DNA of 56,352 bases from Ezakiella peruensis (GTDB lineage: Bacteria > Bacillota > Clostridia > Tissierellales > Peptoniphilaceae): the NCBI RefSeq assembly GCF_900215725.1, contig NZ_LT962469.1, positions 541,012 through 597,363 of the forward strand. Direction: 5' to 3'. The position numbers and the translations under genes were made by a program. The notes below the pieces were generated by a model, which searched no databases, was not told the DNA's origin, and saw only the letters and a program-made list of their open reading frames with translations. Shown here piece after piece: positions 2,813 to 21,458 of the stretch (positions within the stretch are counted from its first letter, which is position 1; every line of letters starts with the position of its first letter).

Positions 2813-3607
2813 ATGAAATTATTTATTGATGTTTTTGGTTTTAAAATTCCTGGCTATGGATTATCAATAGCCATTGGTTTATGTTTTGTAATATTATTTT
2901 TGTACAAGCAAAGAATTTATAAGGATCTGGATTTTGATACGGGTTTATCAGCTCTCCTGTATGCTCTAATTACGGGTGGAGTTTTTGCTAAGATTTTGTA
3001 TTGGATTACAGATCCAAGTAGTTTTTTAGTACTTTTTGATTCTTCGATGGCCTTCAAAGAAAGATTTCAAATTGCCTTCCAAGGAGGACTTGTATTTATT
3101 GGTGGATTGATGGGTGCAGTGCTTGGTATGTATTTGTTTTTAAGAAGGTATAAGCATCTAGATCCATTAAAGACTATCGACATTTTTGCAATCGGCATGC
3201 CAATCCTGCAAATGTTTGGTAGGGTGGGCTGTTTCATGGCCGGTTGCTGCTATGGTATGGCTTGTGAGTCGCCAATATCTGTGGTATTTCCTCCAAGCGG
3301 ACTTGCCCCAGCCGGCATTCCACTTTTACCGACCCAATTATTTGGAGTAGCCGGAAACTTTATAATTATAATGACCTTATTACTCTATAATAAAAAAGAA
3401 AGACAAAGGGGTAGGACCTTTGGCTTGTATCTCACAATGTATAGCATTGGCAGATTTATTTTAGAGTTTTTCCGCGGAGATGAAATCAGGGGAATCTATA
3501 ACGGGCTTTCCACTTCACAATGGTTGAGCTTTCCGATTTTTGTTGCGGGAATATTCTTTTTGTTAAGAAAGGAAAAATCACATGAAAAAAATACTATTGA
3601 CCTCTAG
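2813..3607 (+). CDS. Prolipoprotein diacylglyceryl transferase family protein (cysteine-rich variant)
   Basis: A 264-residue polytopic membrane protein of the Lgt family, which moves diacylglycerol from phosphatidylglycerol to the lipobox cysteine of prolipoproteins. The family blocks are present but altered: FQGGLVFIGG (residues 89-98) in place of HGGLxFxGG, so the family histidine is Gln90; GRVGCFMAGCCYG (136-148) in place of GRxGNFxNGE; then LPTQLF and EFFRGD. The GCF.AGCCYG form is a known sub-branch in clostridia. Whether it is the main Lgt or a paralogue with another lipid-transfer role cannot be told from this window. The 3' end overlaps the next gene by 26 bp. Confidence 0.8.
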   Translation: MKLFIDVFGFKIPGYGLSIAIGLCFVILFLYKQRIYKDLDFDTGLSALLYALITGGVFAKILYWITDPSSFLVLFDSSMAFKERFQIAFQGGLVFIGGLMGAVLGMYLFLRRYKHLDPLKTIDIFAIGMPILQMFGRVGCFMAGCCYGMACESPISVVFPPSGLAPAGIPLLPTQLFGVAGNFIIIMTLLLYNKKERQRGRTFGLYLTMYSIGRFILEFFRGDEIRGIYNGLSTSQWLSFPIFVAGIFFLLRKEKSHEKNTIDL

Positions 3608-6931: not shown

Positions 6932-9907
6932 TTATTGCAACAAATCTATTGTGCTGGGCGGTTCTTTCTCATCTTTGTTTTCGTTATTTTCATTCTGATT
7001 TGGATCGAGCAAGTCTATTTGCCCTCCGTTTTCACCATTTTCTTCATTGTTGTTATTGTTATTCAAATAATCGTTTATATCGAATTCACCATCTCCATCT
7101 GGAGTTAATAGATCTATTATTTCGCTTTCACCAGTATTAGATTCGTTGTGTATATCACATGTCTGAGTTGGAACTCTGTATTGCATATCACTAGGGATAA
7201 CTCCGCCGTGAGATTCTGGACTATAGGGTGGGGTGGTTTGAACACGTACAATCTTGGTCCTAGTTTCTTCTGGGCAGAAATCGTTTGCTAGCATGTTTGA
7301 TTCTGTACATATCTCGACTTCTACATGAGCATCACATGGTGCTGATGGTTCGGTTCCTTTAATGAATATTTCAGAAATTACTGTTCCGCGCGGATCGCTT
7401 GAACAAAATTCGCTTGGACTTTTGCCAGACATTGTACATACTGATGAACGTACTATGCCTTCTGGCTGAGCAAATTCTGTTACGCTTGGCAGTCCCTCAT
7501 GAACTTGGCTCATTACATACTGAAATAATTGAGCAGCGATCATTGAGTTTTGTTTCATGGTGATCTTTGGACTGTCACTGCCAATCCATGTGCTTGCAGC
7601 ATAGTAATCAGTAAAGCCTGAGAACCATAAGTCCGCCGTGTATTGGGTGGTACCAGTTTTACCTGCAACTACTTGGCCAGGTATTTGTGCTCTGGTTCCA
7701 AGCCCGCGAGTTACAACTGTTCTTAAAATATCTTTCATTACATAAGCAGTTTGTGGCTTGGCTGCTTGTACTGGATTTTCTGTGTATTCCAAAAGGGTTG
7801 TTCCATCGTTATCAATAACTTTTGTATAAGATGTTGGTTTTAAATAAACGCCGTCATTTGCAATTGTACCAAAGGCTGCTGTAAGTGCAAGAGGGGAGAA
7901 GCCATTTGTCATTCCACCGAGGGCCAAGCTGGATGCGTTTTCGTCGTTAACTTCACTATTTTCAGAAGCGCTGACAAATGAATCGCGGTCTGGGTGTTCG
8001 GTATCGATGATGCCCATCCTTTCTAAATATGGCACAACTTTGTTTGGACCCATAGAATTTAAAACTTTAACTGCACTTACGTTTATAGATTGTTCAACAG
8101 CATATCTCAAGCTGTGAATTCCTCTAAATCCTAAATACCAGTTGTTTGGCCAAATTTTTCCATTGACAACAATTGGTACGTCGTCAATCGGGCTGGCAGC
8201 AGTATAACCATTTTCAAGGGCAGGCAAGTATACGCTTACCGGCTTTATGGTAGAACCTGGTTGCCTGTGGCTATCTGTTGCTCTGTTTAAAAATCTGTTG
8301 CCGTCTACGTCTCTACCACCAATCATAGCTAAGATGTGGCCTGTGTGGTAATCGACAATTATCATGGCAGATTGTGGTTGGGGAACGCCTTTTTTATTTC
8401 TGTAGACTTGGTTTCCATCGATGTGGAGGTAGTCCTCTTTATTTTTAAATAGGCTGTCGTTATTGGCTATTGCTTTTGAGCTGATAACGATTTCGCCGTT
8501 TTCAACCCAGAAGTCATCTTTGGCAATCGGTAGGCTGCCGACAATGTGGGTAACGAGTGTCTTTTTCTCATCAATTGTATAGTAGTCCTGAACGTCTATA
8601 TTTGAATTATATGCCTTTAGCTTGCTGGACTTGATACAAAGGTTGCCGTTTTCGTCGTATCTCCATTCGCCAGGAGCCAAATAAATATCATCGCTATTTT
8701 GAACGATTAAATTGTCTTTGGCCAAATATATGAAATTGCCGTTTGAATCGACTAGGTTTCCGTATGCATCGGATGTGGTGTCCAGAATAATCGGCGCCCT
8801 CATATTATCGGTATTGCCAAATAGGATTTCAACAAAATTTTTGTAGGCGTCTTCCATTATTTTTTGGTAGCCGACATTAATTGTTGAATATATTTGGATA
8901 CCGCCATAGAAGATTTTATTTTGGGCAATTTTTTTGCTCCAACCATATTTATCCATGAGGTCTTGCTCAACTTGCTTTAGGACATAGTCGGTAAAGTAGT
9001 TAGTAATGTCTGTTGTTTTTGTTTCACCAGGTTTTATTAGTGTTTTTCTATCAATACTCATAGCCTGGTCGTATTCTTCTTGTGTAATCTTACCGTACTT
9101 CAACATTTGAGAGAGTACGACATCGGTTCTTTGTTCGTTTTCTTCATTATAAACAAGGATGTAATTTTGATTTAAGAGTTCAATAAAGCCAACTTTTTCC
9201 ATGGTATTTGGATCAAAGTGTTCAGGACTGACTCTCTTGTATGGGGGATACTTGGTAGGAGATTTAACAACTCCTGCAAGCATAGCGCATTCAACTAGGT
9301 TTAAGTCCTTGGCTGATTTTGAAAAATAAGTTTGAGCAGCTTCTTCGACTCCGTAGGCGTTTTGCCCAAGGGAGACAGTATTTAAATAGGCCTCAATAGT
9401 TTGATCTTTTGACATTTTCTTTTCAAGATCAATTGACATTGTGATTTCATGAATTTTACGCTTTAATTTTCTTTCGTTTGTAAGGTAAGTATTTTTTACA
9501 AGTTGCTGGGTGATTGTGGATCCACCACGTAATTGACCACTTGAAAATGCATCGCGAAAACTAGCCATGATACCTATTAGGTCCACGCCGTCATGCTCGT
9601 AGAATCTTTCATCTTCTATGGCTAGGAAGGCTTGGATTAATTGCTTTGGCATTTGTTCGATGCCAATTACCGTTCTGTATTCAGCGGTTTCAACTTTTTC
9701 TATTAAATTACCATCTAAATCATAAATCTTTGAAGTTTCGGTTAGGTTGTTGGCAATTATATTTGGATCAACCTCATCAACTTCTTTCATAATGCTAACG
9801 ACAGATAGGGCAAGTAAGCTCCCAAATACAATGGTTACTATTAAAACAATATATATAATGTATACTATAAGTTTGCCAGGTGTTAGCACCTTATTTCTAT
9901 GTGGCAT
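6932..9907 (-). CDS. Bifunctional penicillin-binding protein 1A with repeated IDLL tail
   Basis: A 991-residue class A PBP: one N-terminal membrane anchor (residues about 13-40), a GT51 glycosyltransferase domain with catalytic Glu98 in EDERFYEHDG and GGSTITQQLVKN (about 128-139), and a transpeptidase domain with Ser552 (STIK), SIN (607-609) and KTGTT (750-754). It polymerises lipid II and cross-links the stem peptides outside the membrane. After the transpeptidase comes a cysteine-containing stretch (CTMSGKSPSEFC, 824-835), then an Asn/Glu-rich tail holding IDLL at 931-934 and 964-967 and ending in TIDLLQ. The same six residues end the VanW protein at 18552-20021. Its promoter faces that of ireB. 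Confidence 0.95.
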   Translation of the reverse strand: MPHRNKVLTPGKLIVYIIYIVLIVTIVFGSLLALSVVSIMKEVDEVDPNIIANNLTETSKIYDLDGNLIEKVETAEYRTVIGIEQMPKQLIQAFLAIEDERFYEHDGVDLIGIMASFRDAFSSGQLRGGSTITQQLVKNTYLTNERKLKRKIHEITMSIDLEKKMSKDQTIEAYLNTVSLGQNAYGVEEAAQTYFSKSAKDLNLVECAMLAGVVKSPTKYPPYKRVSPEHFDPNTMEKVGFIELLNQNYILVYNEENEQRTDVVLSQMLKYGKITQEEYDQAMSIDRKTLIKPGETKTTDITNYFTDYVLKQVEQDLMDKYGWSKKIAQNKIFYGGIQIYSTINVGYQKIMEDAYKNFVEILFGNTDNMRAPIILDTTSDAYGNLVDSNGNFIYLAKDNLIVQNSDDIYLAPGEWRYDENGNLCIKSSKLKAYNSNIDVQDYYTIDEKKTLVTHIVGSLPIAKDDFWVENGEIVISSKAIANNDSLFKNKEDYLHIDGNQVYRNKKGVPQPQSAMIIVDYHTGHILAMIGGRDVDGNRFLNRATDSHRQPGSTIKPVSVYLPALENGYTAASPIDDVPIVVNGKIWPNNWYLGFRGIHSLRYAVEQSINVSAVKVLNSMGPNKVVPYLERMGIIDTEHPDRDSFVSASENSEVNDENASSLALGGMTNGFSPLALTAAFGTIANDGVYLKPTSYTKVIDNDGTTLLEYTENPVQAAKPQTAYVMKDILRTVVTRGLGTRAQIPGQVVAGKTGTTQYTADLWFSGFTDYYAASTWIGSDSPKITMKQNSMIAAQLFQYVMSQVHEGLPSVTEFAQPEGIVRSSVCTMSGKSPSEFCSSDPRGTVISEIFIKGTEPSAPCDAHVEVEICTESNMLANDFCPEETRTKIVRVQTTPPYSPESHGGVIPSDMQYRVPTQTCDIHNESNTGESEIIDLLTPDGDGEFDINDYLNNNNNNEENGENGGQIDLLDPNQNENNENKDEKEPPSTIDLLQ

Positions 9908-9941
9908 ATAAGTCTCCTTTTATATCAATAAATATAGGTTA

Positions 9942-9970
9942 ATTATAACACATAAAATATTATTTTTCAA
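9942..9970 (-). promoter_or_regulatory. Promoter of the PBP1A gene
   Basis: Minus strand: TTGAAA (9970-9965), 17 bp, TATAAT (9947-9942), with TGT before the -10 (extended). The leader carries the binding site AAGGAG just before the ATG at 9907. Confidence 0.75.
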
Positions 9971-10032
9971 AAAAATTAATTTATTATTCGCAATTGTAAA
10001 ATTATCATTGGATTTTAACCCTTAAAAAATAT

Positions 10033-10061
10033 TCGACATTGATTTAAAAATATGTTATAAT
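10033..10061 (+). promoter_or_regulatory. Promoter of the ireB operon
   Basis: TCGACA (10033-10038), 17 bp, TATAAT (10056-10061) with TGT before it (extended -10). Divergent from the PBP1A promoter. Confidence 0.7.
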
Positions 10062-10106
10062 TATGACAATGGATATGCTGAATAAAATTTAAAAGAGGTG
10101 ATAGAT

Positions 10107-10358
10107 ATGGATTTTGATCAAACGATGAGATTTGTTTCAAAGAAGGATACAGATTCTGAGCCAAGGGAAATTTTGGAAAAAGTTTACAGGGCTCTCGAAG
10201 ATAAAGGTTATCAACCGGTAAATCAAATTATAGGATACTTCTTGTCTGGAGATCCAACATATATAACTAGTCATAACAATGCCAGAAATGAAATTGTTAA
10301 GATGGAAAGAGATGAATTGTTAGAAGCAATATTGAAGGAGTACTTGAATATTGAATAA
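10107..10358 (+). CDS. ireB: IreB family regulatory phosphoprotein (UPF0297/DUF965)
   Basis: An 83-residue protein with the near-invariant family blocks DQTMRF (4-9), PVNQIIGYFLSGDPTYITSH and the ending RDELLEAILKEYL. The reading frame stays open upstream to a GTG at 10098, but that GTG is part of the binding site GAGGTG; the ATG at 10107, six bases further on, is the natural start and gives the usual length. In Enterococcus IreB is phosphorylated by the PASTA kinase IreK and influences cephalosporin resistance; its position across from a PBP gene is suggestive. The gene leads the conserved ireB-ruvX-DUF1292 order and overlaps ruvX by 8 bp. Confidence 0.95.
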   Translation: MDFDQTMRFVSKKDTDSEPREILEKVYRALEDKGYQPVNQIIGYFLSGDPTYITSHNNARNEIVKMERDELLEAILKEYLNIE

Positions 10359-10767
10359 AACAATTCTGGGACTAGATATAGGTGATAGTACAATTGGCGT
10401 GGCCGCTAGTGATCCTAGTGGCACTATTTGCATGCCAGTTGGAGTTATAAAAAGAAAATCAAAAGCAGAGGATATGGCTGACCTGCAAAAGATTATTGAA
10501 GAGCGAAATGTGGGTACTATTGTAATAGGATTGCCACTCGATATAAATGGCGAGCTTGGTCCTCAAGCGAAAAAAGTTAAGAAGTACACCTCTAATATTC
10601 GTAAGGCTACTGATTGTGAAATTGTTTTTGTAGATGAGAGATTTACATCTAGGATGGCAAACAACACACTAAGGACCTTGAATGTAAAAAGAGGTAAGGA
10701 AAAGGGTTATGAAGATGCACTTGCTGCATCTTATATTTTAGAGCTATATATTAAAAGGAATAGATAG
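10351..10767 (+). CDS. ruvX: Holliday junction resolvase RuvX/YqgF family, TTG start
   Basis: A 138-residue RNase H-fold protein of the YqgF/RuvX family: GLDIGDSTIGVAASD (residues 7-21) with the first metal-binding aspartate, VIGLPLDINGELG, VDERFTS, and a C-terminal EDALAASYIL with the last acidic residue. The family acts in Holliday-junction resolution or pre-16S rRNA processing, depending on the organism. There is no ATG near the N-terminus; the TTG at 10351, 10 bases after AAGGAG and overlapping the ireB end, starts the protein just before the conserved first strand. Confidence 0.93.
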   Translation: MNKTILGLDIGDSTIGVAASDPSGTICMPVGVIKRKSKAEDMADLQKIIEERNVGTIVIGLPLDINGELGPQAKKVKKYTSNIRKATDCEIVFVDERFTSRMANNTLRTLNVKRGKEKGYEDALAASYILELYIKRNR

Positions 10768-10775
10768 GAGATTTT

Positions 10776-11021
10776 ATGCCAGAGAGCTTGGCTGTTTTTA
10801 ATGAAAGTGGGGAGGCTACAAACTATTTGGTGCAGGCTCGTTTTGATTTGAATGGGCAGGAGTATATTGCTATATCTTCTGCTGAGGATATGTCAGATGA
10901 GCTCTTGTTTTTGCGCGTAGAAATTGATGGGTCTGGGAATACCATCTATACCAAACCATTTCCCATGGAAACTAGAAAGTTAGAAGAAAAGTATAAGAGT
11001 ATTAAAAAATTATTAAATTAA
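10776..11021 (+). CDS. DUF1292 family protein (YrzB-like)
   Basis: An 81-residue acidic protein ending in LEEKYKSIKKLLN. Length, the FNESGEATNYLVQARFDLNGQEYIAI pattern split around a short sheet, and its place directly after ruvX match the DUF1292 family (yrzB in Bacillus), whose function is not known. The binding site AGGAG precedes the ATG, and RNase J follows 15 bp after the stop, so it sits in the middle of the operon. Confidence 0.85.
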   Translation: MPESLAVFNESGEATNYLVQARFDLNGQEYIAISSAEDMSDELLFLRVEIDGSGNTIYTKPFPMETRKLEEKYKSIKKLLN

Positions 11022-11036
11022 AATTTAGGAGGAATT

Positions 11037-12689
11037 ATGAGTAACGGAGTAAAGATTATTCCTCTTGGAGGTCTCAAAGAGATCGGTAAAAATATAACAG
11101 CATATGAATATAAAGATCAGATTGTAGTTATCGATTGCGGAATGACCTTTCCAGGAGATGAGATGTTGGGGATTGATATTGTTATCCCCGATGTAAGTTA
11201 TTTAATTGAAAACAAACACAAGGTAAAGGCGTTTTTTATAACGCACGGACACGAGGACCATATTGGGGCTATTCCTTATGTATTAAATCAAATTAATGCA
11301 CCAATATATGCGACAAAGTTGACCTGCGCCCTTATTAGGAACAAGGTCAAGGAATTTAATTTAGCTTTAAATATAAATGAAGTGAATTATGGAGATGTAA
11401 TTGATGTGGGAGCTTTTAAGGCAGAATTTGTAGCTGTCACTCACTCAATCCCTGATTCTGCTTCTATAGCTCTATACACACCTGTTGGCACTATCTTCCA
11501 AACTGGTGACTTTAAGATTGACTTGACACCTATTGATGGGGTTAGACCAGACCTAACTCGTATAGCAGAGATTGGTAAAAAGGGTGTTTCTCTCTTGTTA
11601 GCAGATTCAACAAATGTTGAAAGGCAAGGGCACACTTTAAGTGAGTCCACAATTGGAGAAACATTTAACGAATTATTTTCTAAAGCTGATGGCAGGATTT
11701 TGGTTGCGACTTTTGCTTCAAATGTGCACAGGGTTCAGCAAATTATTTCCGCTGCAGAAAAGCATGACAGGTTTGTGGCCTTGTCTGGACGATCTATGCT
11801 AAATGTAGCTAACACTGCTATTGAGATGGGATATATTAAAATAAAAGAAAAGACTTTGATTGATATTAATCAAGCTCACAATTACCCACCAAATAAGGTT
11901 TGTATTATAATGACGGGCTCACAAGGGGAGCCAATGAGTGCTCTTACCAGGATTGCAAATGATGAGCACAAGAAAATAAAATTAACAAGCAAGGATACGG
12001 TTATTATTTCAGCTAATCCAATTCCAGGAAATGAAAAATCAGTAACCGCTGTAATAAATAATTTGATGGCCAAGGATGCCAATGTAATTTATGATAAGAT
12101 TGCAAACATCCACGTTTCTGGTCACGCTTGTGCAGATGAAATTAAACTTATGCACGCACTGGTAAAACCAAAGTTCTTTATGCCAGTTCATGGTGAAATA
12201 AAGCACCTTAAAACACACGCCTTGCTCGCTCAAGAAATGGGCATGGATAAGAAAGATATTTTTGTTCAATCCAATGGCGATGTTTTGGAACTTACAAAAA
12301 GAAGCTTGAAGGTTGTTGATCACATTGCTAATGAAGATGTCTTGGTTGACGGCCTTGGTGTTGGCGATGTTGGAAATATCGTTCTACGTGATAGGAAACA
12401 CTTATCAGAGGATGGACTGATTGTTGTTACACTTACATTGTCAGCTGACGATGGTAGAGTACTTGCAGGCCCAGATATTATTAGCCGCGGCTTTGTATAT
12501 GTAAAGGAAAGTGAAGACATAATGGAATCACTTTTGAGAAAGCTAAGGTCAGTTGTTCAAAGCTTGCAAGATAGAGGAATCGATGATTGGAATACTATGA
12601 AGACTACTATAAGAGATGAGTTGCGCAAATACTTGATGAGTACAACTGGTAGAAACCCAATGATTCTAACAATCTTTACAGAGGTGTAA
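11037..12689 (+). CDS. rnj: Ribonuclease J
   Basis: A 550-residue metallo-beta-lactamase/beta-CASP nuclease. The metal-binding motif HGHEDHIGA starts at residue 70; the TGDFKID and beta-CASP blocks (SGRSM, TGSQGEPMSAL, VHVSGHA-like NIHVSGHA, MPVHGE) follow in the expected order and the C-terminal domain is present. RNase J has 5'-3' exonuclease and endonuclease activity and is a main enzyme of mRNA decay and rRNA maturation in Firmicutes. A strong TTAGGAGG site precedes the ATG. Many Firmicutes have J1 and J2; which one this is cannot be decided here. Confidence 0.95.
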   Translation: MSNGVKIIPLGGLKEIGKNITAYEYKDQIVVIDCGMTFPGDEMLGIDIVIPDVSYLIENKHKVKAFFITHGHEDHIGAIPYVLNQINAPIYATKLTCALIRNKVKEFNLALNINEVNYGDVIDVGAFKAEFVAVTHSIPDSASIALYTPVGTIFQTGDFKIDLTPIDGVRPDLTRIAEIGKKGVSLLLADSTNVERQGHTLSESTIGETFNELFSKADGRILVATFASNVHRVQQIISAAEKHDRFVALSGRSMLNVANTAIEMGYIKIKEKTLIDINQAHNYPPNKVCIIMTGSQGEPMSALTRIANDEHKKIKLTSKDTVIISANPIPGNEKSVTAVINNLMAKDANVIYDKIANIHVSGHACADEIKLMHALVKPKFFMPVHGEIKHLKTHALLAQEMGMDKKDIFVQSNGDVLELTKRSLKVVDHIANEDVLVDGLGVGDVGNIVLRDRKHLSEDGLIVVTLTLSADDGRVLAGPDIISRGFVYVKESEDIMESLLRKLRSVVQSLQDRGIDDWNTMKTTIRDELRKYLMSTTGRNPMILTIFTEV

Positions 12690-12713
12690 AAAATTTAATT
12701 TAAGGAGAGAATT

Positions 12714-13205
12714 ATGAGATACGACACAAAATATGTAACCAAGGCTGCACTCATAGCGGCGATGTATGTGGTTCTTATTGCAATTCAAATGATTCCTGCC
12801 GCCAGTTTAACTTTTGGAGCTGTTCAGCTTCGTTTGGCGGAGGGACTCACAGTGCTTCCATTTGTTGAAGCTGCTGCTGTACCGGGAGTTTTTGTTGGCT
12901 GCTTTATCAGCAATTTGATTTTAATGGCCGTTTCAGGTTTTGGACTGGTAGACCTAATATGTGGGTCACTAGTTACACTGGTTGCTGCTATTATTACCAG
13001 AAAAGCTAAAAACAAATTTATTGCATTTTTAAGCCCGGTTGTGCTAAATGGATTTTTAGTCAGCATTTGGGTTAGTTACTACACAGGTATTCCTTACTGG
13101 ACTACTGTTTTAGGAATTATGGGAGGAGAAGCACTGAGTGTATTCATTTTTGGCTACGCAATTTTATATGTGTATGAAAGGTCAAAAATATTTAGGAGGT
13201 TTTAA
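12714..13205 (+). CDS. queT: QueT-family queuosine-precursor ECF transporter substrate-binding subunit
   Basis: A 163-residue membrane protein with about five or six hydrophobic segments. The stretch QLRLAEGLTVLPFVEAAAVPGVFVG (residues 37-61) and GCFISNLI are diagnostic of the QueT family, S components of energy-coupling-factor transporters thought to import queuosine precursors (preQ0/preQ1 or queuine). The energising EcfAAT genes are not nearby, as usual for group II systems. Only 24 bp separate it from RNase J, so there is no preQ1 riboswitch in front. It overlaps mltG by one base (TAATG). Confidence 0.9.
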   Translation: MRYDTKYVTKAALIAAMYVVLIAIQMIPAASLTFGAVQLRLAEGLTVLPFVEAAAVPGVFVGCFISNLILMAVSGFGLVDLICGSLVTLVAAIITRKAKNKFIAFLSPVVLNGFLVSIWVSYYTGIPYWTTVLGIMGGEALSVFIFGYAILYVYERSKIFRRF

Positions 13206-14242
13206 TGAATACAGCAGTTAAATGGATTTTAACATTTGCACTTTTACTAGCGATTGTATTTGCTGCAATTTTTGGTTTCAAGGCTTATAATAAGAGTATG
13301 TATAAGCCTGTAGATATAAATGACACAAACCTTTATGAGTTTTCAATTTCCAAGGGCAGCTCTTTGAGCACGGTTGCCTCATCTTTGTATGATATGAATC
13401 TTATAAAAAATGGGAGTGCTTTTATTTCAAGAGTTGAAGAGCTTGGACTTGAGTCAGAAATCCAATCTGGAAAGTTTAAACTCTCCAGGTCTATGGATGT
13501 TGATCAGGTGATAAATGAGTTGACAAAAAAGCCAGAGGTAGATATGGCTGGCAGTGTTAAACTTGTAATTCCAGAAGGTTTTGAAAGAAAGTTGATTGCA
13601 GCAAGGATAGAAGAACTTGGACTTGGAAGCTCTCAAAAGTTTATGGAATTAACTGAGGATAAGGGAATTTATGAAGAAGAATTTCCATTTTTAAAAACTT
13701 TGCCTCAAGGACAAAGCTTGGAAGGCTTTTTATTTCCAGCAACTTATGAGGTTTCAGCTTCTGAAGGGGAAGAAAGCCTTATAAAAAGAATGCTTACTGC
13801 CTTTGATGTTAGGATGGAACAAAACTTCAACCAAGGATCATATAATGGTCTTGATTTAAATCAAATGATTACTCTGGCATCGATAATCGAAAGAGAAATT
13901 AAAATTGATGATGAAAGACCTCTAGCTTCTTCTGTCTTTTATAATAGAATAAATCAAGGTATGAGGCTGCAATCATGTGCAACTGTGCAATATATAATTG
14001 GTGAGAGAAAGGCTGTTTTGACAAATGAAGAGACAAAAATAGATTCGCCATACAACACTTATATAAACGAAGGTTTACCACCAGCACCAATTGCTAGTCC
14101 AGGTATGAAATCCATTATGGCTGCTATTAATCCAGCGGATACAGAGTATTTATTTTTCGTAAAGACAGGTGAAGATGGATCTCACAGTTTTTCAAAAACT
14201 TATGAAGAACATCTGGAACATAAAAAGGACATGATAAGATGA
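13205..14242 (+). CDS. mltG: Endolytic murein transglycosylase MltG
   Basis: A 345-residue single-pass membrane protein (helix at about 7-26) with a LysM-like region and the YceG/MltG catalytic domain. Family marks are LEGFLFPATYEV (172-183), the catalytic glutamate Glu229 in LASIIERE, DSPYNTYINEGLPPAPI and the C-terminal HSFSKTYEEH. MltG cuts newly made glycan strands near the membrane and is thought to release or limit PBP products; PBP1A is encoded about 4 kb away. It is co-transcribed between queT and the U32 protein, overlapping the latter by 4 bp (ATGA), the order seen around yrrL in Bacillus. Confidence 0.95.
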   Translation: MNTAVKWILTFALLLAIVFAAIFGFKAYNKSMYKPVDINDTNLYEFSISKGSSLSTVASSLYDMNLIKNGSAFISRVEELGLESEIQSGKFKLSRSMDVDQVINELTKKPEVDMAGSVKLVIPEGFERKLIAARIEELGLGSSQKFMELTEDKGIYEEEFPFLKTLPQGQSLEGFLFPATYEVSASEGEESLIKRMLTAFDVRMEQNFNQGSYNGLDLNQMITLASIIEREIKIDDERPLASSVFYNRINQGMRLQSCATVQYIIGERKAVLTNEETKIDSPYNTYINEGLPPAPIASPGMKSIMAAINPADTEYLFFVKTGEDGSHSFSKTYEEHLEHKKDMIR

Positions 14243-15450
14243 TAGAATTACTTGCACCAGCAGGAGATTTGCCTAGGCTAAAGACAGCATTAGATTATGG
14301 AGCTGATGCTGTTTATTTGGGCGGAATGAGCTTTGGCCTCAGAAAAGGCGCCACCAATTTTACAAAAGAAGAGATGATAGAGGGCGTGGAGTACGCTCAT
14401 GAGCGTGGGAAAAAAGTTTATGTAACTTTAAATATTATTCCCCACGATGAAGATTTGGAAAATCTGGATGCCTATATAAAATTTTTATCTGATGCAAAAG
14501 TGGATGGGGTTATAGTTAGCGATCCAGGAATTATGATGAAGGTAAAAGAACTTTCTGATATGGAAATTCACATTTCCACCCAAGGGTCGGTAACTAATGC
14601 TCCAACTGCAAACTTTTGGTATCAGATGGGGGCTAGACGGATTGTTCTTGCAAGAGAGTTAAGCCTTGAAGAAATAAAAAGTATTAGAGATAATATTCCG
14701 GAGGACATGGTTCTAGAAGGTTTTTGTCACGGAGCCATGTGCATGAGTTATTCAGGCCGGTGTTTGATTTCAAGCTATATGACAGGCAGAGATCCCAACA
14801 GGGGGGATTGCGCACACCCCTGCAGATACAAATATCATTTGGTCGAAGAAAAAAGACCAGGCGAATATTTTCCAATAGAAGAAGTGGATGGCGGGACTTA
14901 TATTATGAATAGTCGCGACCTAAGAACTATAGAATTTATTGATAAATTAATTGAAGCTGGTATTTATTCTTTGAAAATTGAAGGCAGAATTAAATCTGCT
15001 TATTATGTTGCAACAATTGTCAGGGCTTACAGAAAAGCCATTGACCAATATTTAAAATCACCAAGCGATTATAAGTTTGATGAAAAATATAATCAAGAAA
15101 TTGAAATGACAAGTCACAGGCCATTTACATCTGGATTTTATTTTGGGAATCCTGGAGCAGAAGGCCAATACAATCAAAGCTCTAGTTATATATCAGAGGC
15201 TCAATACAAGGGTGATGTAGTCGAAGTAAAGAACAGCAGGCTCTATGTATATTTAAAGAATGGTATAAATGAGGGCGATGAGCTGGAAATTTTTGGACCA
15301 GACACCACTGACAAGGTGGTCGTAAAAGATTTAAGGGATAAGGATGGCAGGCAAATAGATAGGGCAAATGTTCCAAAGGACACTTACTCTTTTGTCTATG
15401 AAGGCCAAGCGAAAAATAATTATTTTGTAAGAAAGGTAATTGAAAAATGA
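14239..15450 (+). CDS. Peptidase U32 family RNA hydroxylation protein (TrhP/YrrO-like)
   Basis: A 403-residue protein of the U32 family. The N-terminal ELLAPAGD and the cysteine set FCHGAMCMSYSGRC...GDCAHPCRY (from about residue 163) are hallmarks, the cysteines likely holding an Fe-S cluster. Despite the old peptidase name, members such as TrhP (tRNA 5-hydroxyuridine) and RlhA (23S rRNA hydroxycytidine) are needed for RNA hydroxylation. Its place between mltG and udk matches Bacillus yrrO/trhP2, which argues for the tRNA role. Only one U32 gene is present where Bacillus has two. Overlaps udk by 4 bp. Confidence 0.9.
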   Translation: MIELLAPAGDLPRLKTALDYGADAVYLGGMSFGLRKGATNFTKEEMIEGVEYAHERGKKVYVTLNIIPHDEDLENLDAYIKFLSDAKVDGVIVSDPGIMMKVKELSDMEIHISTQGSVTNAPTANFWYQMGARRIVLARELSLEEIKSIRDNIPEDMVLEGFCHGAMCMSYSGRCLISSYMTGRDPNRGDCAHPCRYKYHLVEEKRPGEYFPIEEVDGGTYIMNSRDLRTIEFIDKLIEAGIYSLKIEGRIKSAYYVATIVRAYRKAIDQYLKSPSDYKFDEKYNQEIEMTSHRPFTSGFYFGNPGAEGQYNQSSSYISEAQYKGDVVEVKNSRLYVYLKNGINEGDELEIFGPDTTDKVVVKDLRDKDGRQIDRANVPKDTYSFVYEGQAKNNYFVRKVIEK

Positions 15451-16070
15451 AAAGACCACTTATAATCGGTATCACAGGCGGATCAGGCAGTGGCAAGTCC
15501 ACAGTTGCAAAAAACATTATTAAAGAGATCCCAAAGATTAATGTCGCTATTATAAATCAAGATTCTTATTACAAGCCTCATGATGATTTGTCAATGGAGG
15601 AGAGGGCAAAGTTAAATTATGACCACCCACTTTCATTTGACAATGATTTGCTTGAACATCATTTACAAGAGCTTTTAAGGGGAAATTCTGTGGAAGTGCC
15701 GATTTATGATTTTACAATTCACACTAGATCAGAAGGTACTCTTACTGTTGAACCAAGGGATATTATTATCCTGGAAGGACTTTTTATTTTGTATGACGAA
15801 CGCATTAGAGACTTGATCGACATAAAGGTCTTTGTAGATACTGATTCAGATGTCCGCATTATAAGAAGAATTTTAAGGGACATGAAGGAAAGAGCTAGGA
15901 GCTTGGATTCTATTATCTTGCAATATATGACTACGGTAAGACCTAGTTATATTAATTTTGTTGAGCCTACAAAAAGATTTGCAGATATAATTGTTCCTGA
16001 AGGCGGAGAAAACAAAGTGGCTATTGATCTTTTGTCTTCAAAAATAAAATCCTCTTTGGAGGAAATATAA
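15447..16070 (+). CDS. udk: Uridine kinase
   Basis: A 207-residue P-loop kinase: Walker A GGSGSGKST (residues 11-19), the NQDSYYK acceptor-binding block (about 37-43), NYDHPLSFD (about 57-65) and YDFTIHTR (about 88-95). Udk phosphorylates uridine and cytidine to UMP and CMP with ATP or GTP (pyrimidine salvage). The ending IRRILRDMKERARSLDSII matches the lid. It is the last gene of the conserved block before the GspE/GspF remnant, whose first ATG is 2 bp after the udk stop. Confidence 0.95.
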   Translation: MKRPLIIGITGGSGSGKSTVAKNIIKEIPKINVAIINQDSYYKPHDDLSMEERAKLNYDHPLSFDNDLLEHHLQELLRGNSVEVPIYDFTIHTRSEGTLTVEPRDIIILEGLFILYDERIRDLIDIKVFVDTDSDVRIIRRILRDMKERARSLDSIILQYMTTVRPSYINFVEPTKRFADIIVPEGGENKVAIDLLSSKIKSSLEEI

Positions 16071-16072
16071 TT

Positions 16073-17367
16073 ATGAATATTAAGTTTATACAAAAATTAG
16101 TAGACTACAATAAAATAGTCGGAGATAGGGGCTTCCTTGACCCGGCTATTTTTGTAGGCAAAGTTAAAGAACCCATCCAAGATGTTAGGGGCGTCAATGC
16201 AAAAATATATAAATTGACGATTATATTTTGGTAGACTTTGATCACATGCCAAAGAGTAAAGAAATTGCGCTTATAGAAGATGAACACGGGCCGTTTTTGT
16301 ATAGGATTGTAAAAGCTAAATCCTATGCAGGAGATGACTTGGATGCGATTATAATAGATGCAATTGAAATGAGGGCAACCGATATTCACTTTGAACCCAA
16401 AGAAGATAAAATGGGAATTAGATTTAGGATTGATGGAGTATTGAAGCATATTTCTTATATGTACCAGGATTTTGATAGATTATCTAATATTATTAAAGTC
16501 AGGTCTGGCATGGATACTGTAAATAAAGAAATGCAAGACGGCAGCATGGATTTTAAAGACAATTCAAAAGATCTTAGCATTAGGGTGAGCAGTGTGCCTA
16601 CGCAATTTGGCGAAAAATTTGTCTTGAGATTACTTAACTCCAATCAAATCGAATTGGATTTGATAAAGCTGGGTATGCCAGAAGATGTCCTTGATATTTA
16701 TAAAAAATATATTAACAAAGAGGGTATGAATTTGGTGGTTGGTCCGACTGGCAGCGGTAAGAATACAACCATGCATGCAGCATTAAAGCTTCTCCCTCAT
16801 CAAGAAAAAAATATTATAAGTATAGAAGACCCAATTGAATACCGGGCAGATGACATTACTCAATTAGAAGTTGACAATTCAAGGGGAAGGACTTTTAATA
16901 AATTACTTAGGGCATCGCTCAGGCAAGACCCAGATATTATTTACATTGGCGAAATCAGGGACGAAGAGACTGCACAAGTTGCAATGAGATCAGCTATAAC
17001 AGGTCATACAGTTTTTTCAACATTGCATACAAGGGACGATAAAAATACTTATGATAGGCTTTTGGACCTGGGGGTTGAAGAATATATTTTAAAAACAGCA
17101 ATCTCCACAATTATTAGCCAACGTTTGGTGAGGACCCTCTGCGATTGTAAAATAAAAACTGAGGATGGCCACTACATGGCAAATGGCTGTGATAAATGCA
17201 ACAATGGCTATTATGGCAGGACAGGTGTCTTTGAATTGTCTGTTGCAGATGAAGGAAGAGGGGAATTTAGATTTAAAAAAATCATCGATAGGCAAGAATC
17301 TCTGAAAAGATTATATGAAGAAGGCAAGATTGATTTAAAAACCTTTGAGGAAGAAAATGATATATAA
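16073..17367 (+). pseudogene. GspE/PilB-type pilus or secretion ATPase, frameshifted near 16211
   Basis: Reading from the ATG at 16073 gives 53 codons and a TAG at 16232. The ATPase continues in another frame: codons open from 16213 (IDDYILVDFDHMPKSKE) to 17367. One missing A in the run at 16211-16213 would join the two into about 432 residues. The second part has the full C-terminal engine: MRATDIHFEP, Walker A GPTGSGKNTT, GEIRDEETAQVAMRSAITGHTVFSTLHT, QRLVRTLCDC and a CxC...CxxC zinc site. In Walker A the Ser/Thr after Lys is Asn (AAT, 16762-16764). The downstream part could still be translated from TTG 16228. Either a real mutation or a sequence error. Confidence 0.75.
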
Positions 17368-18487
17368 TTACATTGAAGAGTCACAAGATGGCTACAAGCT
17401 AGGTATAGGCCCAATAGAAGAGCCAGTTGATAGATATATTTCTATAAAACCTTTGATTGAAAGCAAAAAGGAAACTTATAGGTTCTTAAAGGGGATTGAG
17501 ATTTTAATTTCTCAGGGCGTAGACGTTTATACTGCGGTTGGCGTTTTGAGAAATTCAAATGAATACAAGAAAGAAAAGGCGACTCTGGATAAAATATATG
17601 GAAAAATGTCAGGGGGCCAAAGTTTTTACATGGCCTTGAAACTTTCAACTAGGCTGCCAGCTTATTATTTAAATCTGATAAAAGTTGCAGAGCTTAGCGA
17701 TGATTTGCTTGAACCGATGAGAGAGGCAAACAGAATTTTAGAGAGAGGCAAGTCTGTAAAAAGAAAGGTTTTTAATGCCGTATCATATCCTGCGTTTTTG
17801 TTTTTCTTATCCTTGCTTATGCTGATTGTAATGAGCAATTTTATACTTCCTATGTTTGCGTCGCTCTATGAAGGCTTTGATGCAGATTTACCGAAAGTGA
17901 CTAAGGTCGCCATAGGAATCGGCAAGGCTTTGTCAAATTATTTAATCTATTTTCTTGCAATAATTTTTATTATCTATATAGGTCTTGGATTTCTGTACAT
18001 GGTCTCATATGATTTTTATATGCTGGTGGAGACCTACAAGTACAAGTATTCTTTATTTAGAAAACTCAGACAAGATTATTTTTTAGAAGCATTTTTTAAA
18101 AAGTTTAACATTTTGTATTCTAGACTAGAAAACACTTATGCTTCTTTGGGCCACATAAGTAGTTCTGAAGAAAATTTATTTTTAAGATTAAATCTTATAA
18201 AGCTTACAAATGAAGTCCAAGCAGGCAAAGACTTTGTAAGCATAGGATCCGAATCTTATGTATTTACTGAATTTTCGACTGCACTTTTTACTGGCGTTAT
18301 GACAAGCGAAGCTATGAAAGAAGTTTCAGCAAATCTGGCAGATTTATACAAAGAATCTGTGGATAATAGGTTAGAAAATTTGGCCAAGTGGATATCACCA
18401 ATTATAACATTGATAGTTGGAGTAATTATTGGTATAATGGCTATAGGAATTGTTGCTCCGATGTTTAATTTGGCAAATATAATTTAA
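17357..18487 (+). CDS. GspF/PilC-type inner membrane platform protein
   Basis: A 376-residue protein with two GspF domains, each followed by membrane helices (about residues 140-160, 185-210 and 345-370 in this frame), as in type II secretion, type IV pilus and ComGB proteins. The frame is open back to a TTG at 17345, but the ATG at 17357 has GAGGA at the right distance, so I start there, still inside the end of gspE. The protein would be the membrane platform for the ATPase upstream. No pilin (ComGC-like), minor pilin or prepilin peptidase gene follows; the next gene is the VanW protein, so the set here is incomplete. Confidence 0.85.
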   Translation: MIYNYIEESQDGYKLGIGPIEEPVDRYISIKPLIESKKETYRFLKGIEILISQGVDVYTAVGVLRNSNEYKKEKATLDKIYGKMSGGQSFYMALKLSTRLPAYYLNLIKVAELSDDLLEPMREANRILERGKSVKRKVFNAVSYPAFLFFLSLLMLIVMSNFILPMFASLYEGFDADLPKVTKVAIGIGKALSNYLIYFLAIIFIIYIGLGFLYMVSYDFYMLVETYKYKYSLFRKLRQDYFLEAFFKKFNILYSRLENTYASLGHISSSEENLFLRLNLIKLTNEVQAGKDFVSIGSESYVFTEFSTALFTGVMTSEAMKEVSANLADLYKESVDNRLENLAKWISPIITLIVGVIIGIMAIGIVAPMFNLANII

Positions 18488-18551
18488 GTTGAATAAATAT
18501 TAGCCTATGGGGTAAATTTCATATATAGAAATTATTTTGGGAGATAAATGA

Positions 18552-20021
18552 ATGAATAAAAAAACAATAATCACGACTTCAATTATACTTGCTTTATTAA
18601 TTTTAGCAGGTGCCATATATTATTTTTACAATAATCAAAAAGAAGAGGAGAAGAAAAGGCAAATTTTATCTAGCGACCTAATTTATGATGGAATTAGCGT
18701 TGATAATATAGATTTGTCCAAAAAGACTAGAGACCAAGCATTGGAAGAGGTAAAGTCACAGGTTGAAAGTATTTTAAATAAAAATTTTAAAATTATAATT
18801 GATGAAAACACCTATGAAAGCACTTTAAAAGATCTTGGCTTAGAAATAAATTATACCAAGGCAGTAGATGATGCCTATAATTTTGGTAGAAGAGGGTCTA
18901 GTGAATCTAGGCTTGCTATTATAAATGAGGCCAAGGAAAATCCTATAAATTTTGAAACTAAGACCAGTATTAATTCCGATACTCTAAAGGCTTATATAGA
19001 AAATATAAACAAACAACTTTTAAAAGAGCCTGTTGAAGCTCATGTTGAGTTTACCGAAGAGGGATTTAATATCATAGAAGGCGAAAATGGAGTAGAAATA
19101 GATGCTGAAGACTTGGCAAAGAAGATTAAAAATGCAGTAAAATCTGGAGATGAGAGCGTCACAGCAGATGTCAAAGTAAAAGAAGCCAAGACTTCTAACG
19201 AAATGCTTGGAAGAATAAATGGAGTCATTGGAGAATTTCAAACTCCACTGGGAAATGGCACTCAAGGCAGGAATGAAAATATAAGATTATCTTGCAAGAG
19301 AATAAGCGACAGGGTTATTATGCCAGGAGAAAGTATTTCATTTAACGATGAGATGGGAGAGATAACCGCACAAAACGGTTACAAGATGGCTTCTACTATT
19401 GTAGGAGGAAAATATGTAGACTCTTTGGGCGGTGGCCTTTGCCAAACATCAACTACTCTTTACAATGCTCTTGTCAGGGCAGATGTAGAAATTATTGAGA
19501 GACACCCGCACTCAATTGCAGCTCCATATGTTGCAGTTGGAGCAGATGCTGCTGTGTGGAAGGGCGCCAAGGATTTAAAATTTAGAAATAATTGGGATTT
19601 CCCAATTATTATTAAGTCTTGGGTCGACAATAAAAATATTTATTTTAAAATATACGGCGACACCAAAGAAAAGAATTATGATATTGATTTACAAACTACA
19701 ATTGTTTCAAGAATTCCTAGAGGCCGGGTTGAAAGGCAAACAGATGCCATCCAAGCAGGACAGGAAAGAGTTGTGAGCGGAGGAAGGGATGGGATAAATG
19801 CTGTTTCCACAAAAATTTACAAAAAAAATGGGCAAAAGTTCAAGGAGATAGGCTACTTGAAAAGCTCTTACCCAATGCAAAATGCTATTGTAGAAGTAGG
19901 GACAGGCACTGTAGAGTCGGATCCAAATGCTGGTGCAGAAAATCCATCTAGCGAAAATCCAGAAACTGAAGAATCAGATGTTGATGAAAATCCAGTAGAC
20001 ACAATCGACCTACTTCAATAA
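18552..20021 (+). CDS. VanW family protein with peptidoglycan-binding-like and G5-like domains, TIDLLQ tail
   Basis: A 489-residue protein with an N-terminal membrane anchor (residues about 5-26). A peptidoglycan-binding-like (PG_binding_4) region spans about 40-220, then the VanW domain (about 225-380) with PGESISFND, GGGLCQTSTTLYNAL and RHPHS, then a G5-like segment (about 400-450). Such proteins are anchored outside the membrane and bind or modify peptidoglycan; the exact VanW activity is unknown. The last 40 residues are an acidic linker (Asp/Glu/Pro/Asn rich) ending TIDLLQ, identical to the end of PBP1A. The gene overlaps the convergent lipoprotein gene by 12 bp. Confidence 0.9.
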   Translation: MNKKTIITTSIILALLILAGAIYYFYNNQKEEEKKRQILSSDLIYDGISVDNIDLSKKTRDQALEEVKSQVESILNKNFKIIIDENTYESTLKDLGLEINYTKAVDDAYNFGRRGSSESRLAIINEAKENPINFETKTSINSDTLKAYIENINKQLLKEPVEAHVEFTEEGFNIIEGENGVEIDAEDLAKKIKNAVKSGDESVTADVKVKEAKTSNEMLGRINGVIGEFQTPLGNGTQGRNENIRLSCKRISDRVIMPGESISFNDEMGEITAQNGYKMASTIVGGKYVDSLGGGLCQTSTTLYNALVRADVEIIERHPHSIAAPYVAVGADAAVWKGAKDLKFRNNWDFPIIIKSWVDNKNIYFKIYGDTKEKNYDIDLQTTIVSRIPRGRVERQTDAIQAGQERVVSGGRDGINAVSTKIYKKNGQKFKEIGYLKSSYPMQNAIVEVGTGTVESDPNAGAENPSSENPETEESDVDENPVDTIDLLQ

Positions 20022-21458
20022 ATCTATATTTAATAAGTTATTATGACTTTCAACCATTAAAGAATTTGTCTTTGCTGAGTAAAATATATTTTTACATGGC
20101 AGTTGGACAATCGTTTTAATAGATTGATTTTTATAGATCGAGAGTTTTATTGTGCTCTCGATTTTTTCTTTTATAACAAGATTATCATTTTGGTCATAGG
20201 AAATACCTTTTATATTTCCCTGCATGATTTCTTTATTGAGTCCAGATTTTAGAGAGTATACAATGAGCTCGGCATTATTTGATCCAGGACTTTGCTTAAG
20301 GTAGGAGATGAATTCACTATTGATAACTGGCTTGGCTCCCTTGCCGAGAAAGGCTAGGCTGTAGTTTGAATCAATGCGGTATACGAGATTTCCATCTTTG
20401 CCAATGGTTTCTATTACAAGGTCCTTGCCGTTTGTAGCTATGGACTTAATCAAAAAACTCATTTGCTTAATCTCTTCTAATTCTGAGTCTTGAGATTTAA
20501 ATAATTTTGAACTTGTGCTGTTGTTGGTTATAAAGAAAATTTTATCATCGTAGACAGCAAAGTCATCTGGATATAAATCTCCTAAGTCAAAAGTTTTTAT
20601 ATCATCTGTCTCAGGATTAAAAATATAAAATTTAGATGTCGGCTCACATGATTGAAAATATATTTTAGAAGTCTTGGGGTCTCGTTTTATATTTGTAAAT
20701 TCTTCTTTAAGTTTATTTATTTTCAAACTTTCGTTTTTGGGTATATTATAGAAGTAGATGTCATCTGATTGTTTATACAAAAAGAAATCACCACTTGCAA
20801 AACCAATCGATTTATCGAAAGGTATTTTTTTTGAAATTTCAAATTTATTTTCATTTACAATTTCTTTGCTGGAATCACTGATGGCAAAACGTATGGAAGC
20901 ATTTTCTTGGTCTTGATCGACTAGCGGATAATACAGGGTCCACATTAGGCCCTTTGTAGTACGCATGAGCTTGATATCCAAGGGATCATATATTATACTG
21001 GGATATGTTTCTTTGATTATAGCCTTTGCAGTATCGGTATCCATATTTGGCCTTAAAAAATCGAAATCAGAATCCAGTCTTAATTTATAGTTTTGTTTAT
21101 TATAAGGGTTGATGCCTCTAAGAACAATTTTTATTACAGGTTTTTGTAGGCTATCATTTTTTACAACGGGGCCTTTTAATTTAACAATGATTTCATCTTC
21201 GCTTTGCTTTAGATCAAGGACTTTTATATTGGTCCTATCTGTTAATGGGCAGACGATAGTGAGCTCTACATCTATTGAGCCCACGGGTTTCATTTCCCAG
21301 GAAATTTCATTGTTGTTGTAGTCACTTATATAATCTATGGATTTTAAATCGTATTCGATGGGGATATAATTAATCCCAGTTTTAGGATCATCTTTTATAA
21401 GCACATCGCATCCAGACAAAAATATTATAAAGATAAGTAAAATTAATTTTCTTTTCAT
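20010..21458 (-). CDS. Lipoprotein of unknown function, possibly beta-propeller
   Basis: A 482-residue predicted lipoprotein: basic start MKRK, hydrophobic segment, lipobox LSGC with Cys17 as the lipid site. The first 130 residues look like a beta-sandwich. From about 230 on there are repeated short beta-strand patterns (DIYFYNIPK, KIYFQSCE, KFYIFNPET, KIFFITNNS) like a degenerate propeller. I do not recognise a named family. It converges on the VanW gene and its last codons are antisense to that gene's tail; it happens to end NIDLLK. An Lgt-family gene at 2813 could supply the lipid modification. Confidence 0.75.
   Translation of the reverse strand: MKRKLILLIFIIFLSGCDVLIKDDPKTGINYIPIEYDLKSIDYISDYNNNEISWEMKPVGSIDVELTIVCPLTDRTNIKVLDLKQSEDEIIVKLKGPVVKNDSLQKPVIKIVLRGINPYNKQNYKLRLDSDFDFLRPNMDTDTAKAIIKETYPSIIYDPLDIKLMRTTKGLMWTLYYPLVDQDQENASIRFAISDSSKEIVNENKFEISKKIPFDKSIGFASGDFFLYKQSDDIYFYNIPKNESLKINKLKEEFTNIKRDPKTSKIYFQSCEPTSKFYIFNPETDDIKTFDLGDLYPDDFAVYDDKIFFITNNSTSSKLFKSQDSELEEIKQMSFLIKSIATNGKDLVIETIGKDGNLVYRIDSNYSLAFLGKGAKPVINSEFISYLKQSPGSNNAELIVYSLKSGLNKEIMQGNIKGISYDQNDNLVIKEKIESTIKLSIYKNQSIKTIVQLPCKNIFYSAKTNSLMVESHNNLLNIDLLK

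Follow-up and report, generated by a model that had tools for sequence, protein, structure and literature searches.

Two unrelated cell wall enzymes encoded in a 56,352-nt stretch of the Ezakiella peruensis genome (GCF_900215725.1, contig NZ_LT962469.1, positions 541,012-597,363 of the forward strand; hereafter the window) end in the same six residues, TIDLLQ. One is PBP1A, a class A penicillin-binding protein (PBP), and the other is a protein of the VanW family. A motif of this type, hereafter called the tag, is found on both proteins in all six genomes of the genus, and in the sister genus the same two proteins share a different ending. Our proposal, which we regard as about evenly balanced between right and wrong, is that the tag is a short linear motif for extracellular docking, by which one receptor outside the membrane reads the tails of PBP1A and VanW. 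The tag pairs a glycan-polymerising D,D-transpeptidase, which forms 4-3 links, with a probable L,D-transpeptidase, which would form 3-3 links.

Two wall enzymes with one C-terminal word

The features of the two proteins are as follows.
6932..9907, minus strand: PBP1A, class A penicillin-binding protein, 991 aa (Pfam Transgly 2.9e-59, Transpeptidase 7.6e-34)
~9233-9712, minus strand: glycosyltransferase (GT) domain of PBP1A (Pfam)
~7586-8365, minus strand: transpeptidase domain of PBP1A (Pfam)
6935..7144, minus strand: low-complexity tail of PBP1A, 70 aa with 29% D+E, 21% N and 3% K+R (composition)
7100..7123, minus strand: tag copy 3, EIIDLLTP, the proximal copy, adjoining the folded domain (sequence)
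7001..7021, minus strand: tag copy 2, QIDLLDP, not present in G005, the close sister genome
6935..6952, minus strand: tag copy 1, C-terminal TIDLLQ, motif kept in 6/6 genomes of the genus
18552..20021, plus strand: VanW-family protein, 489 aa, with an N-terminal transmembrane helix (Pfam, model)
18813-19157, plus strand: PG_binding_4 domain of the VanW protein (Pfam)
19269-19655, plus strand: VanW domain (Pfam)
19428..19451, plus strand: GGGLCQTS with Cys297 (alignment)
19698-19904, plus strand: G5 domain (Pfam)
19923..20018, plus strand: acidic tail of the VanW protein, residues 458-489, disordered in the model
20001..20018, plus strand: tag on the VanW protein, C-terminal TIDLLQ (translation, orthologues)

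The identities of both proteins, as given in a first-pass annotation of this DNA, were borne out by Pfam, with Transgly and Transpeptidase on one chain against PG_binding_4, VanW and G5 on the other. PBP1A combines glycosyltransferase and transpeptidase on a single polypeptide with scores far above the cut-off and is thus assigned to the class A PBPs. Translation likewise reproduced the identical ends that had been noticed: PBP1A (6932-9907, minus strand) terminates in EKEPPSTIDLLQ and the VanW protein in ENPVDTIDLLQ, each directly before the stop codon and each preceded by an acidic low-complexity tail. The codons of the tag differ, as had been stated, reading ACAATAGATTTGTTGCAATAA against ACAATCGACCTACTTCAATAA; four of the six are different and all differences are synonymous.

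The PBP1A tail is expected to lie outside the membrane, judging by eye from an N-terminal transmembrane stretch, and its composition suggests that it is disordered. In this it resembles the disordered extracellular C-terminal tails reported for class A PBPs of B. subtilis, C. difficile and streptococci (PMC12539705). Those intrinsically disordered regions (IDRs), unlike the tail described here, were characterised by disorder, gap sensing or glycosylation, and the available text of that source mentions no motif held in common with another enzyme.

The model of the VanW protein had a mean predicted local distance difference test (pLDDT) score of 87.6 and was confident except for the tag-bearing residues 458-489 (<50). 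Cys297 and His320 were invariant in all 34 aligned rows. A second family of L,D-transpeptidases, defined by VanW domains and having PG4 domains and an active site of Cys and His, was described in C. difficile in 2024 (PMC12729407; also PMC11986978), and the C. difficile VanW proteins LdtCd4 and LdtCd5 are L,D-transpeptidases (PMC12729407). Like these two, the window protein possesses a membrane anchor, a PG4 domain, a VanW domain and the Cys and His residues, which on this basis form a putative catalytic pair. It also has a G5 domain and the tagged tail. By analogy, it is probably an L,D-transpeptidase making 3-3 links.

Conservation and distribution of the tag

The family search covered 130 genomes, of which six belong to the window's own genus (genus g1) and three, with a VanW match among the matches listed, to the sister genus (g16). 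The endings of the two proteins in these genomes are listed below.
G000 (the window's genome): PBP1A TIDLLQ; VanW TIDLLQ
G005 (its close sister): PBP1A TIDLLQ; VanW TIDLIQ
G001: PBP1A TIDVFN; VanW TIDLFSE
G002: PBP1A AVDIFNP; VanW TVDIFAD
G003: PBP1A SVDLFE; VanW AVDLLQ
G004: PBP1A TIDLFN; VanW TIDLLQ
Sister genus (3/3 genomes listed): PBP1A VKILP; VanW AVMLP, AVVLP or AVILP

Within the genus, both proteins of all six genomes carry the motif [TAS][IV]D[LIV][LIF] followed by one or two residues. When the last 60 residues of each of the 12 proteins were shuffled, the motif became terminal in a fraction of only 0.00005-0.0017 of the shuffles, depending on the protein. Chance is untenable in view of this low rate and of the conservation on both proteins in six of six genomes. 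The tags of the same species agree at 24 of 30 positions, a value equalled by 16 of 720 pairings, with the relatedness of the species left in.

The linkers preceding the tags can barely be aligned except in the closest pair, and the catalytic stretches compared are 67-100% identical. Scored by exact match to G000, with gaps counted as mismatches, the identity of the tag was 0.20-1.00 against 0.18-0.58 for the linker in PBP1A, and 0.40-1.00 against 0.03-0.70 in VanW. The tag exceeded the linker in all ten comparisons, with a slight margin for G002 PBP1A and G005 VanW. Apart from these thin margins, the tag is thus conserved above its flanks and recurs on unrelated proteins, as befits a short linear motif, and it lies within a stretch that is disordered by pLDDT in VanW and by composition alone in PBP1A.

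PBP1A carries further copies of the word. Counting [IVS]D[LIV][LIF] in the tail after the last CDxHN gave three copies in G000, two each in G005, G001, G002 and G004 and one in G003, compared with means of 0.004-0.027 in shuffled tails. A word like tag copy 3 occurs at the same place in all six genomes and is degenerate in G003 (PEIFNP).

A profile of 14 positions was built from 18 tag copies of genus g1, and a second one from the endings of the sister genus. As both were derived from these very tails, recovery of the latter is no evidence, and it is the scarcity of other matches that is informative. In the six genomes of the genus, the g1 profile yielded 22 matches at E<=10: 17 in PBP1A or VanW, one in a 41-codon frame and four in other proteins. 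In the window's genome only two proteins matched at this threshold. Across the 130 family genomes, 19 matches were obtained at E<=0.1, comprising 16 PBP1A or VanW sites, one exported protein of G002 and two thymidine kinases. The profile of the sister genus gave six matches in three genomes at E<=10, every one in PBP1A or VanW.

All four other matches within the genus start with an apparent signal peptide (by eye). In G002, an 812-codon frame contains PGTVDILS shortly after this peptide. G004 contributes three: a protein of 225 aa that matches glucosaminidase below the threshold, one in which SLH and CAP domains are apparent by eye, and a surface protein of 3582 codons (L370:1302-12050) with a profile E-value of 6.6. 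Despite this weak value, the latter is convincing as a tagged protein because of four tandem copies at the mature N-terminus, directly after the signal peptide (TVDLFNPELG..KTVDLIPGEDD..TVDLLTPSEE..KTVDLLNPEQP). A thioester domain, scoring below the threshold, comes next and is followed by many SpaA domains; SdrD_B domains are present as well. The protein ends in YPATGG and a membrane helix, that is, a sortase-type anchor (by eye), and we refer to it as an adhesin.

Pattern searches were less selective. The pattern [IV]D[LIVMF][LF]x-stop, which demands exactly one residue after the core, gave 35 matches in the window's genome against 46 for the reversed control; endings with no or two residues there are partly covered by the profile search. 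All 35 were inspected (three window genes and 32 others) and seven ending in TGG were dropped. Among the remaining 28, four have open frames of 60 codons or more, the range to which this verdict applies, with shorter genes not excluded: PBP1A, VanW, a lipoprotein discussed below and a cytoplasmic-looking enzyme ending in VEVDLLL, which we take to be HemW-like. The sister-genus pattern had 56 matches in G083, of which 28 distinct ones were inspected; only PBP1A and VanW lie in frames >130 codons, and six further matches in open frames of 66-126 codons were assumed to be non-genes. For the sister genus, the profile is a cleaner test than this pattern. The pattern T[IV]Dxx.P matched 12 times in six genomes against seven times in the reversed control and is of little use alone.

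These results bear on the proposal, made in the first-pass annotation, of a C-terminal docking tag with a shared partner. The refutation test set out there did not refute it. Both proteins retain the ending in all five sister species, and it is not spread among cytoplasmic proteins; the exceptions are the VEVDLLL enzyme and the two thymidine kinases, which belong to other genera, were named by reading and are matches by chance, the word lying inside a folded enzyme. A docking motif with a shared partner therefore fits. A strictly C-terminal position had to be given up in view of the internal copies of PBP1A and the N-terminal ones of the adhesin. Nor can TIDLLQ itself be taken as the motif, being only one variant of a word that the sister genus replaces by a different shared ending. 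A PDZ-like reader had also been suggested. PDZ ligands present a free hydrophobic residue at the C-terminus and at that position only. The tags end in Q, N, E, D or P and occur internally and N-terminally as well; with a variable last residue and with internal copies in PBP1A, such a reader is unlikely.

The same two proteins share an ending in all nine genomes read of the two genera, and the sequence differs between the genera in step. A PBP1A tree computed with the tails removed groups the two genera with a support of 100/99, which makes one origin followed by parallel divergence the simplest history. The two genes are at most ~15 kb apart in the window's genus and ~110-120 kb apart in the sister genus; gene linkage therefore does not explain the shared ending. 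Read from the sequences, a change in step between genera would look like the expected picture of two ligands co-evolving with one receptor.

Of 34 PBP1A and 34 VanW rows chosen from the family and the order, 25 of each had neither ending. Outside the two genera, the tails read were mostly acidic, lysine-rich or N-rich and lacked the ending. When the 28 genomes with both proteins were compared, both ends were hydrophobic in the nine genomes of the two genera and in one of the 19 others (G040), whose two ends are dissimilar. In other families of the order (L053-L056, L058-L060, L063), a recurring aromatic word of the DWLNDWFNN or DWFNNWII type was seen by eye in the PBP1A tail after the last domain; this word may represent an earlier docking motif in that position.

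A proposed common receptor and its alternatives

In the proposed mechanism, flexible acidic tails would reach outward from the two membrane-anchored enzymes and be bound, through the hydrophobic-acidic word at or near their ends, by a shared receptor. PBP1A, with more than one word, might bind more tightly or bridge receptors. The common receptor would bring 4-3 and 3-3 cross-linking to one place; PBP1A and VanW would share one receptor site or compete for it, and the receptor could set the ratio of both enzymes at growth sites. Going from a conserved word to a bound word, to one shared receptor and to co-recruitment involves steps that we infer. A wider version, which we consider rather doubtful, is an extracellular docking code in which the word marks cross-linkers on flexible free ends, in some species together with a hydrolase-like protein and the giant sortase-anchored adhesin, for one receptor that has changed together with the word between the sister genera. 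If true, it would tie D,D- and L,D-cross-linking together physically.

Several observations weigh against a common receptor. As no partner of the tag was found, binding is something we infer. Removal of the tail of C. difficile PBP1 caused no growth defect but made the cells slightly more curved; this IDR is dispensable for laboratory growth, and certain VanW proteins are without L,D-transpeptidase activity (PMC12539705 and PMC12729407, respectively). The VanW tree leaves the sisterhood of the two genera unresolved. In G089 (L078), which belongs to another genus, VanW ends in TVNLLP, close to the tag, and the PBP1A end has no tag; of the two ends only that of VanW is hydrophobic. The tag identity of G002 PBP1A (0.20) is hardly higher than that of its linker (0.18) by exact match. 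Furthermore, the profiles match their tails by construction, and even so the PBP1A end of G003, a row from which the g1 profile was built, escaped it.

Other explanations were weighed against the same evidence. The hydrophobic ends of PBP1A and VanW could pair directly as a short beta zipper with no third partner; the same sequence on both proteins, the parallel change between genera, the hydrophobic core and the one to three exact copies of the word in PBP1A of each species would agree with this, but the acidic linkers of both proteins should repel each other, and all twelve g1 ends have Asp where PBP1A of the sister genus has Lys; we consider such pairing unlikely. It is similarly improbable that the words are a processing or turnover signal by which one extracellular protease reads both tails and trims or degrades both enzymes. 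Words that are hydrophobic and close to the ends of exported proteins, as in these two, might serve this purpose, and the streptococcal PBP1a tail appears to be protected from proteolysis by its O-glycosylation (summarised in PMC12539705); internal copies in PBP1A and N-terminal ones in the adhesin are nevertheless ill-suited to a tail-specific protease, as is the varying last residue. We give little credence to a receptor within PBP1A itself, in which a domain would bind its own tail in cis until displaced in trans by VanW, which thereby docks onto PBP1A. This would explain why the tag is found mainly on these two proteins, E. coli LdtD binds PBP1B directly (PMC6428754), and PBP1 of the Peptoniphilaceae and of related families is reported to have a GI domain near the GT domain (PMC12539705); however, the profile is also matched by four exported proteins of G002 and G004 (one of them by eye only) in which no PBP domain was recognised.

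There is a slim chance, in our view, that the tag binds a polymer of the wall or surface, or a component of an outer layer, and not a protein hub, so that long exported proteins would be anchored by their free ends. It does lie opposite the anchor in PBP1A and VanW (N-terminal transmembrane segments, that of PBP1A by eye) and in the G004 adhesin (C-terminal anchor by eye, N-terminal tags), but more than two matching proteins at E<=10 would be expected in the window's genome. Strongly disfavoured, and in our judgement very improbable, is the absence of any function, the likeness then stemming from chance, from residual resemblance among low-complexity tails or from a DNA constraint imposed by the overlapping lipoprotein gene. 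Acidic tails of other genera are indeed similar to each other by BLOSUM (the score of 19 for G118 equals those of G004 and G084 and exceeds that of G020), and the VanW and lipoprotein genes of the window species overlap by 12 bases; yet the tags persist without gene overlap in G003 and G004 and also in the sister genus, where no relative of the lipoprotein turned up within ~10 kb of either gene, and the hydrophobic character of both ends in nine genomes of the two genera versus one of 19 others speaks against it as well.

The C-terminal tip of SSB and the C-terminal peptide of FtsZ offer a parallel: in both, a flexible acidic linker leads to a terminal hub-binding motif that is short, conserved and hydrophobic. 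Unlike the tag, these ends are cytoplasmic and belong to one protein with many partners rather than to two enzymes with one tag. Among wall proteins, a GpsB-binding motif is common to B. subtilis PBP1, YrrS and YpbE (PMC12457691). As would be the case for the tag, one short motif on several wall-synthesis proteins is read by one hub; it is, however, read by a cytoplasmic GpsB domain (PMC12457691), whereas the tag sits on tails expected to be extracellular, including that of an L,D-transpeptidase-type enzyme. A shared hub motif on wall enzymes is therefore known in the cytoplasm, and new here are its expected extracellular location and its occurrence on both a PBP and an L,D-transpeptidase-type protein. 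The E. coli LdtD-PBP1B/LpoB-PBP6a repair machine likewise unites a class A PBP and an L,D-transpeptidase in one complex, LdtD binding PBP1B at 112 nM (PMC6428754). LdtD differs from the window's VanW protein in being of the YkuD type (PMC12729407), and the available text of PMC6428754 mentions no shared tail motif for this machine. As the first-pass annotation had supposed, no tag of this form was described among the matches listed in the open-access literature, subscription papers lying mostly outside the search.

On the question of how the two wall cross-linking chemistries are coordinated, the C. difficile authors suggested that an interaction with PBP1 or PBP3 might bring L,D-transpeptidases to their sites (PMC12539705). 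The tag, together with its natural swap between sister genera, offers a small testable handle on this question. The tag peptide is a possible bait for the receptor, and a part of the class A PBP tail is given a specific candidate function.

The adjoining lipoprotein and other genes

One further feature adjoins the VanW gene.
20010..21458, minus strand: convergent lipoprotein with a predicted C-terminal beta-propeller (model)

This lipoprotein ends in NIDLLK, and its last 12 bases are shared with the VanW gene. It has no Pfam match and a beta-rich N-terminal part, and we take it to be reminiscent of LpqB. NIDLLK was considered as a third tag and rejected, as the ending is absent from four of the five sister species (only G005 keeps NIDLLN); moreover, it is predicted to form the last strand of the propeller, and the likeness would then be a coincidence. 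Positions 20001-20027 form an imperfect palindrome in which one strand reads IDLLQ-stop and the opposite strand IDLLK-stop; a similar arrangement is found elsewhere among the six genomes only in G005 (IDLIQ and IDLLN). In G003 and G004, the VanW and lipoprotein genes do not overlap.

The lipoprotein gene adjoins VanW in all six genomes and evolves fast, with 22-31% identity to the four more distant genomes of the genus. In the sister genus, no relative of it was found within ~10 kb of the PBP1A or VanW genes. The propeller lipoprotein may at most be regarded as a tentative candidate receptor of the tag.

A prolipoprotein diacylglyceryl transferase-like gene (2813-3607, by eye), which overlaps the next gene, ends in NTIDL. 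The C-terminus of this enzyme should be cytoplasmic, and the likeness is probably due to chance. Just upstream of VanW lie GspE/PilB-like and GspF/PilC-like genes (16228-18487, named by eye). A PilC-like frame is found upstream of VanW in five of the six genomes of the genus (the window, L015, L016, L018 and L019), and an ABC transporter-like frame takes this place in L017.

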